From Clostridia bacterium (lineage in GTDB: Bacteria > Bacillota > Clostridia > Christensenellales > Borkfalkiaceae), in the NCBI GenBank assembly GCA_017545865.1, contig JAFWXO010000021.1, positions 1 through 56,302 of the forward strand: 56,302 nt of DNA, given 5' to 3'. The position numbers were made by a program, and so were the translations under genes. The first letter of the stretch is position 1, and the number at the start of each line of letters is the position of its first letter. Shown here piece by piece: positions 23,821 through 24,279 of the stretch. The notes beneath the pieces were generated by a model, which was not told the DNA's origin, ran no database searches, and saw only the letters and a list, made by a program, of their open reading frames with translations.

Positions 23821-23830
23821 AAGCATACCC

Positions 23831-24197
23831 TTAGCCGAGTCCCTACAAGGGATTCGGCAACTAAATAAATCCGTAAACGGATTTGTGAGATTTGCCTAAC
23901 GGCAAGTGATATTGCTAACGCAGTGATATCTTGCTACGCAAGGTTTTGGATTTATTTAATATCACTTTGGCTTTGCCAAAATAACACTGTTTACCCTGTA
24001 AACAATACCACTTTTAGCCATGAGGCTAAAAATATAACTGCCAAGGCAGTTGGCGTTCGCTAACGCTCGGCTAAACTTATGAAACTTAATTATTTTCGTA
24101 TAAAAAGCCCACTATATTTGCACTTGCAAAACGTAGTGGGTTATACTTTTGGTTTTGTTTAACTTCTACAAGTAATACCCTAATGGGTATGTTTTTT
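23831..24197. repeat. Dense hairpin array in a gene-free interval
   Basis: About twelve short inverted repeats follow each other with few unpaired bases. They include GCCGAGTCCC/GGGATTCGGC (23834-23858), AAATCCG/CGGATTT (23867-23884), TTGCC/GGCAA (23892-23905), CTTGC/GCAAG (23930-23942), TTTGGC/GCCAAA (23966-23980), TGTTTAC/GTAAACA (23988-24004), TTTTAGCC/GGCTAAAA (24012-24031), AACTGCC/GGCAGTT (24036-24051), GCGTT/AACGC (24053-24066) and CCCACTA/TAGTGGG (24108-24140). Longer arms enclose them: TTAGCCGAG/CTCGGCTAA (23831-23839, 24066-24074) and TAAATAAATCC/GGATTTATTTA (23862-23872, 23948-23958). Three AGTGATAT/ATATCACT copies are interspersed. No gene above 36 residues is seen. I do not recognise the element. 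Confidence 0.8.
24175..24197 (+). terminator. Terminator at the end of the hairpin array
   Basis: ATACCC-TAAT-GGGTAT followed by G and six T residues. It would stop transcription running through rubrerythrin and the array before asnS. Confidence 0.6.
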
Positions 24198-24279
24198 CGT
24201 TTACGCACAATATATGGTGTAAAAATCTTTAAAATTGTTAAAAAAATATTCTCAAACGGTAGCAAAATGAAAAAAAATA

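Follow-up and report, generated by a model that had tools for sequence, protein, structure and literature searches.

Hairpin-array elements inserted in terminator loops of Clostridia, and their association with IVP genes

The locus and its hairpin array

The window, i.e. the whole 56,302-nt stretch analyzed here (contig JAFWXO010000021.1 of assembly GCA_017545865.1), derives from a Clostridia bacterium of the Borkfalkiaceae (Christensenellales). Between a rubrerythrin-like gene with small ORFs and asnS it contains a spacer in which almost every base can join a short stem. Perfect hairpins (stem of at least 5 bp, loop of 3–6) number 11 within 23825–24200, 10 of them in the first 350 nt, against a mean of 2.16 (range 0–7) in the other 157 tiles of 350 nt in the window, so that the near-continuous run of hairpins reported in the preliminary description is borne out. 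The array is also unusually stable, with fold z scores of −7.4 (RNA, plus strand), −7.8 (RNA, minus strand) and −7.2 (DNA, plus strand), and none of 100 shuffles is as stable in any of the three folds. All pairings named previously were recovered by a sequence check and a repeat search, including that of AAGTGATATT (23904) with AATATCACTT (23958). At gathering thresholds, a tRNA is the only Rfam match in the window. The features of the spacer are as follows.

23824–23830, plus strand: 5′ arm CATACCC of the host intrinsic terminator, separated from its partner by the element (CATACCC-loop-GGGTATG is intact at the orthologous site of genomes G003, G002 and G007)
23831–24184, plus strand: inserted element, 354 nt between the terminator arms; junctions uncertain, the 5′ one in 23831–23834 and the 3′ one in about 24165–24185
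23834–23858, plus strand: head hairpin GCCGAGTCCC..GGGATTCGGC, at the 5′ end of the element (sequence of copies)
23858–23934, plus strand: match to Rfam RF01706, Gut-1 RNA, 46.6 bits (gathering 50)
23862–23872, plus strand: 5′ arm TAAATAAATCC, with a local partner (23879–23884) or a distal one (23948–23958; repeat search, dual-partner test)
23867–23884, plus strand: local hairpin AAATCC GTAAAC GGATTT, state A (hairpin scan)
23892–23905, plus strand: hairpin TTGCCTAACGGCAA, a stem that covaries among copies (hairpin scan, covariation)
23905–23913, plus strand: linker word AGTGATATT; second copy AGTGATATC at 23922–23930
23913–23922, plus strand: small hairpin TGCTAACGCA, whose outer pair covaries (covariation)
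23930–23942, plus strand: hairpin CTTGCTACGCAAG, covarying (hairpin scan, covariation)
23948–23958, plus strand: distal arm GGATTTATTTA, closing the 5′ domain, state B (repeat search, dual-partner test)
23958–23966, plus strand: inverted linker word AATATCACT; variants at 23980–23988, 24004–24012 and 24032–24039
23966–23980, plus strand: 3′ domain hairpin TTTGGC..GCCAAA (hairpin scan)
23988–24004, plus strand: 3′ domain hairpin TGTTTAC..GTAAACA (hairpin scan)
24012–24031, plus strand: 3′ domain hairpin TTTTAGCC..GGCTAAAA, one of those that vary least between copies, as judged by eye
24036–24074, plus strand: module AACTGCC..GGCAGTTGGCGTTCGCTAACGCTCGGCTAA, optional (7 of the 31 complete copies have it); a related inverted module is present in loci L070, L074 and L078
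24103–24150, plus strand: subterminal terminator-like hairpin AAAAGCCCACTA..TAGTGGGTTATACTTTT
24175–24191, plus strand: 3′ junction ATACCCTAATGGGTATG, with GGGTATG (24185–24191) as the 3′ arm of the host terminator, followed by a T-run (24192–24197)

Unoccupied orthologous sites

The upstream rubrerythrin-like gene was located in seven genomes of the same genus at 67–89% identity (a distant match in G008 was excluded), and the element is absent downstream of all seven orthologs. The corresponding spacer of G003, G002 and G007 is a short terminator, CATACCC-loop-GGGTATG-T run, with a stem identical to that of the window, where the arms of the same terminator, which follows the rubrerythrin and small-ORF genes, are held 354 nt apart. 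G005, G004, G006 and G001 have other short terminators at this place, the next gene in G001 being one other than asnS. Given seven element-free loci and a short intact terminator in relatives, the arrangement is best read as an insertion into the terminator loop. The stretch 23831–24184 is a mobile insertion element in a terminator loop, not a resident RNA gene. A promoter-like TATAAT before asnS lies 3′ of the element and is retained in relatives that lack it, and the element is therefore not an asnS leader. At the window copy, ATACCCTTA/ATACCCTAA is ambiguous as a target-site duplication.

A dispersed family

A DNA search for further copies, as the preliminary description had proposed, found 16 matching stretches at 12 places in the same genome, the window copy included. 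The best other copies are 89 and 87% identical to it over most of the element; since the longer copies are 82–89% identical and short stretches as little as 71%, recent movement is not evident. Matches occur in 14 of 61 genomes (own included), representing 7 of 42 genera and three families of one order, and the copies adjoin unrelated genes. Multiple copies and unoccupied sites, the two marks by which a mobile element is recognized, are both found, and of the natures proposed earlier for the spacer, that of a REP-like mobile element was right in kind, given the dispersed copies, the unoccupied orthologous sites and the insertion into a terminator loop. The linker word AATATCACT occurs 57 times genome-wide compared with 20 for its reversed control. 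Counting of repeated words is too weak as an array detector (the window element scores only 3), and hairpin density and a dual-partner test were used instead.

Reading of the copies gives a common plan. The 5′ part consists of a head hairpin, a AACTAAATAAATCC arm, four hairpins with AGTGATATT-like linkers, and GGATTTATTTA; the 3′ part comprises three or four hairpins on reverse-complement linkers, a spacer, a terminator-like hairpin and a short tail. Head and tail were both recognized at 31 of 66 loci, termed complete copies; the rest are cut by contig ends or miss an end. Heads are of type GCCGA (22 copies), GTCGC (6) or TAGTG (3), and the tail type changes together with the head type, as judged by eye. 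The arms TAAATAAATCC (23862–23872) and GGATTTATTTA (23948–23958), 75 nt apart, had been described as enclosing a group of hairpins, and they recur in 17 of the 31 complete copies; the wider arms TTAGCCGAG and CTCGGCTAA, 226 nt apart, are present in the window as described, but are unconserved among copies. The CTCGGCTA module is found in 7 of the 31 complete copies, three of these seven having other heads, and a 39-nt module occurs in either orientation at different places of the copies, which indicates that units of the element have been shuffled.

Several copies carry additions. In L052, L057, L058 and L066 an extra insert GAACCTGC..GCAGAACCTTGAA is nested in the loop of one array hairpin (L058 is cut before its end), and in L063 and L064 a longer nested hairpin, TTTGAAAAATTTCCTTGCAAAGCAAGATATTTTTCAAA, takes the place of one array hairpin. 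Contigs C10 and C16 of G001 (L273 and L272) are identical over 9.2 kb from the head hairpin on, with differing left flanks; an assembly or strain effect is possible, and this identity was left out of the evidence. A viral origin was considered on the basis of three viral-contig matches of GRCAACTAAATAAATCC and rejected: by eye, L244 and L245 are coding-like and L246 is without hairpins around the match.

Relation to Gut-1 RNA

The preliminary description knew no named family with this layout. Rfam Gut-1 (RF01706) in fact covers the 5′ half of the element (23858–23934) over the full model length, at 46.6 bits and E 5.2e-8, which is just under the gathering threshold of 50 bits, so that the window copy itself stays below the family's own limit. 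The threshold is exceeded at 7 of 20 sister loci and at L105, one of 20 in a set mostly with other linker words (8 of 40 in total), and by none of L165, L166 and L168; the sister copies that pass are homologous to the window element. Gut-1 has the same hairpins and linkers as the window element, but the match ends before the distal arm (23948–23958) and the 3′ domain. It was listed in a 2010 paper, under 'Human gut only', among noncoding RNAs found only in environmental sequences (PMC2864571), whereas the window element is mobile. A search of open-access full texts for 'Gut-1 RNA' found no paper.

Insertion into hairpin loops

Pairing between the two flanks of one copy scores higher (mean 11.05 in the 31 complete copies) than pairing between flanks taken from different copies (8.14, sd 1.63), although some high scores reflect A/T-rich flanks and not terminator stems. 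The own 3′ flank ranks among the top three of 31 in 17 copies, 6th–10th in four and 12th or worse in ten. At L049, L073, L075, L005 and L086, removal of the element would restore a stem of at least seven bases followed by a T run, and at L089 the head hairpin alone sits in a terminator loop. By longest open frames, 20 of the 31 lie between convergent genes. No regular target-site duplication was seen in the 31 copies, the ends of which look, by eye, like imperfect inverted repeats.

The same kind of head hairpin and tail occurs in terminator loops at L258 and L152 around different cargo: an AAA ATPase gene in L258 and a 186-aa gene in L152, whose product has no Pfam match above the cut-off.

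Association with IVP genes

Profile searches for PF05635 (IVP, the 23S rRNA intervening-sequence protein) found 31 genes above the cut-off in 17 of 61 genomes and none in this genome; the window copy itself is without an ORF. IVP genes are present in 8 of 14 element-bearing genomes versus 9 of 47 others, the six element-bearing genomes in which none was found including this one and the high-copy G011. In L109 and L110, from different genera, a PF05635 ORF lies directly 3′ of a AGTGATATT-type array (E 1.7e-29 and 3.1e-29). About 24 of 30 fetched IVP genes are preceded by an array of the same plan, mostly built on different linker words (AATGATG, GATGAAATC, GTATGTAAT, ATGAATTG and more), the assignment of arrays to IVP loci, like that of tails to heads, resting on reading of the printed sequence by eye. 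The IVP genes of L111, L113 and L122 have no array upstream, and L132 and L133 offer too little sequence to judge. A tRNA, 5S or tmRNA gene is contained in 14 of 16 IVP-array loci scanned with Rfam. In L126, an IVP gene with an internal stop adjoins a AGTGATATT-type array, and an rve-type match is close by on the contig.

A scan of a contig collection with 24 IVP proteins gave at least 585 relatives, of which the best 80 were used. The assemblies of these 80 carry the names of Clostridia, of families within them or of Bacillota; many titles point to ruminant gut, and one assembly is Candidatus Ornithoclostridium (Christensenellales). After six loci were dropped as too short, at least five hairpins in 350 nt were found upstream of 55 of 74 IVP genes taken from these best 80 of at least 585, against 7 of 66 downstream regions; for IVP genes of the relatives' genomes the upstream figure is 19 of 29. 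In a phylum-wide sample scored for repeated words, a word is repeated at least four times upstream of 8 of 30 IVP genes versus downstream of 1 of 30. Five plasmid IVP genes have short repeated words upstream, with separate hairpins absent by reading. Among solved structures, the IVP proteins match the chains 2rld and 2gsc, the latter a Xanthomonas protein described as a homopentamer (PMC4990558).

IVP genes were also encountered in other settings. At L300 and L303 (G108:C1:403844 and G182:C40:64178) a PF05635 gene lies inside an RNase P RNA gene, Rfam RNaseP_bact_a being matched over model positions 1–367 spread across 775 nt, and in the phylum sample L293, L298, L302 and L306 have PF05635 genes within 23S rRNA genes, the classical intervening sequence (IVS). 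In L274 (Monoglobus) and L277 (Planktothrix) IVP stands between type I restriction genes or genes with DISARM/BREX names, preceded by short repeated words. In other phyla, tandem short words directly precede IVP in L276 (Bernardetia; TTAGTGA about 15 times) and L275 (Treponema; GGTGAAAGATGAAAG type).

Alternative pairing and covariation

The preliminary description had noted that AAATCC (23867) has two partners, at 23879 and 23948. Both are present, and the dual pairing recurs in 17 of the 31 complete copies. Such arms were sought more widely as 6-base arms with one partner 2–8 nt away and a second 65–95 nt downstream. They were found upstream of IVP in 50 of 102 regions (13 of 28 from relatives and 37 of 74 named loci from the best 80 of at least 585), compared with 5 of 211 controls (1 of 73 downstream regions and 4 of 138 window tiles) and 7 of 1020 first-order resamples. 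Beyond the six selected bases, the distal pairing continues for 2.46 and 3.65 bases on average in the two sets, versus 0.29 in resampled sequence. The 50 dual arms represent 21 different 6-mers, about 17 after merging of shifted readings of one word, and the distance from arm to distal partner is 76–80 nt in 35 of them (81 in the window). Among the complete copies, 19 of 31 have a dual-partner arm, 17 of these being the AAATCC arm with its long outer helix; it is missing from 12 (several of them chimaeras by reading) and from 52 of the 102 upstream regions. In about half of the arrays, then, the mutually exclusive pairing is conserved, while the sequence that forms it is not. The earlier suggestion of a 'switching 3′ region', read as a resident regulator, is unsupported, the element being present at 0 of 7 same-genus orthologous loci.

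Covariation, which the preliminary description had named as a check, was examined in 25 domains of the window's own type, chosen for both outer arms, the outer helix being invariant by this selection. The stems covary: nine pairs show 44 cells changed on both sides, a level reached by 0 of 500 shuffles, against two cells with one-sided changes. However, the number of further pair types (12) is below that of all shuffles (mean 14.7), and covariation alone is no proof of RNA function because cassette exchange or palindrome correction also makes arms change together. The local alternative hairpin is broken in 3 of the 25 domains (L079, L083 and L088). T.G pairs at the stem base are invariant at two places and present in 24 of 25 domains at a third. 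In a first version of a strand test, G.T versus A.C stem mismatches stood at 29 to 4 in complete copies, 31 to 28 before IVP and 23 to 17 downstream; in a stricter version they stood at 22 to 1 and 7 to 3, which is only suggestive because two ancestral pairs, in head and tail, account for most of the 22.

Search for a mobilizing enzyme

Searches of 61 genomes found no Y1 transposase (Y1_Tnp) in this genome (G000) or in G001 and no reverse transcriptase (RVT_1) in this genome, the assembly of which is 94.85% complete; in 16 genomes searched for rve integrase and IS110 Transposase_20, neither was found in this genome or in G001. Y1 is present in the element-bearing G009, G011 and G026, and rve in G005, G011 and G045. 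None of Y1, reverse transcriptase, rve and IS110 is present in all the high-copy genomes (G000, G001, G011 and G045), and they were rejected as a common mobilizer.

Comparison with known systems

The intervening sequences of 23S rRNA replace small tetraloops and may encode S23p/IVP (PMC4990558). Insertion in a hairpin loop is shared by the window element, relatives of which encode PF05635. However, the target is an intrinsic terminator instead of 23S rRNA, and the structure is an array of linked hairpins without an ORF in place of one long stem. The window copy, accordingly, replaces a hairpin loop but neither encodes PF05635 nor lies in rRNA. The functionality and origin of IVP/S23 elements were still called unclear in 2016 (PMC4990558).

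REP/BIME sequences associated with RAYT resemble the window element as short, dispersed extragenic palindromes in several copies; the window element differs in the lack of a Y1 match in the genome, in its longer ordered array with inverted halves and in its loop-specific insertion. Group IIC introns use terminator hairpins as targets, a preference shared with the window element, but reverse transcriptase was not found in this genome and the window has no Rfam intron match. The Avd protein of diversity-generating retroelements is homologous to PF05635 (PMC10053308); no reverse transcriptase was found in this genome. IVP is also named in the legend of a figure about CRISPR-linked genes (PMC10910872). 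In open-access full texts no paper was found on hairpin arrays beside IVP genes, and literature searches on RNase P RNA insertions and terminator-loop elements gave nothing relevant, as judged by title and abstract.

Interpretation

The window element probably belongs, as a non-autonomous member, to a family of IVP-associated insertions that live in hairpin loops, the window copy being, on this reading, an IVP-less derivative that would not move on its own. Its array would serve as the recognition structure, either as RNA made by read-through of the disrupted terminator or as DNA. Rings of IVP may bind the linker words, while the arm that closes either the local hairpin or the whole 5′ domain would switch the array between two shapes, two states that would matter for movement. 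The resulting nucleoprotein may favor further hairpin loops as insertion sites, where the element would be tolerated because its tail hairpin would restore termination. The proposal draws on the copies and unoccupied sites, the loop target, the plan of the array, the association with IVP and the conserved alternative pairing.

It is rather unlikely, though a serious rival, that the element is instead MITE- or REP-like and moved in trans by a conventional end-recognizing transposase, the array being cargo and IVP one cargo among several. What makes it serious is that ends of this kind enclose other genes in L152 and L258, within terminator arms; moreover, head and tail have, by eye, the look of imperfect inverted repeats and vary in concert between types, and 6 of the 14 element-bearing genomes lack a detected IVP gene. 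Against this, no regular target-site duplication was seen, and neither this genome nor G001 has a match to Y1_Tnp, rve or IS110 Transposase_20, nor this genome one to RVT_1, a result confined to these families and to incomplete assemblies.

That mutation alone keeps the hairpins perfect, replication template switching correcting quasi-palindromes in an array without structural function, is improbable. Such correction would suit the excess of double over single stem changes (44 versus 2) with hardly any wobble intermediates, but the distal arm lies outside the local palindrome and yet tracks the local arm through many words, the paired stretch exceeds the selected six bases, and the T.G pairs at stem bases have been left uncorrected. 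That the array is a structured RNA resident at this locus, or a switch regulating the gene on either side (as an attenuator, riboswitch or 3′ processing element), is most improbable of all, since the stable fold, covarying stems, conserved alternative pairing and the listing of Gut-1 by its discoverers as a probable noncoding RNA (PMC2864571) are set against absence from all seven same-genus loci, copies beside unrelated genes and a TATAAT before asnS that lies downstream of the element and is kept in element-free relatives; as a locus-specific regulator, this reading is already contradicted, which does not extend to a trans-acting RNA made by the family.

More broadly, and more tentatively than the reading of the window copy as a member of an IVP-associated family, IVP and the linker-hairpin arrays could be two halves of one unrecognized class of mobile elements. 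Such elements would have neither a conventional transposase nor a reverse transcriptase of their own, would insert into the hairpin loops of terminators and, by extension, of 23S rRNA and RNase P RNA, would use a two-state array as recognition structure, and would be able to carry unrelated genes between hairpin ends. If true, two orphans, Gut-1 RNA and the IVP/S23 elements, would share one explanation, which makes the testable predictions that IVP binds the linker word of its lineage, that the array adopts two states and that insertion is specific for hairpin loops. It would also caution against taking every covarying RNA structure in metagenomes for a regulator, since some can be parts of mobile elements.
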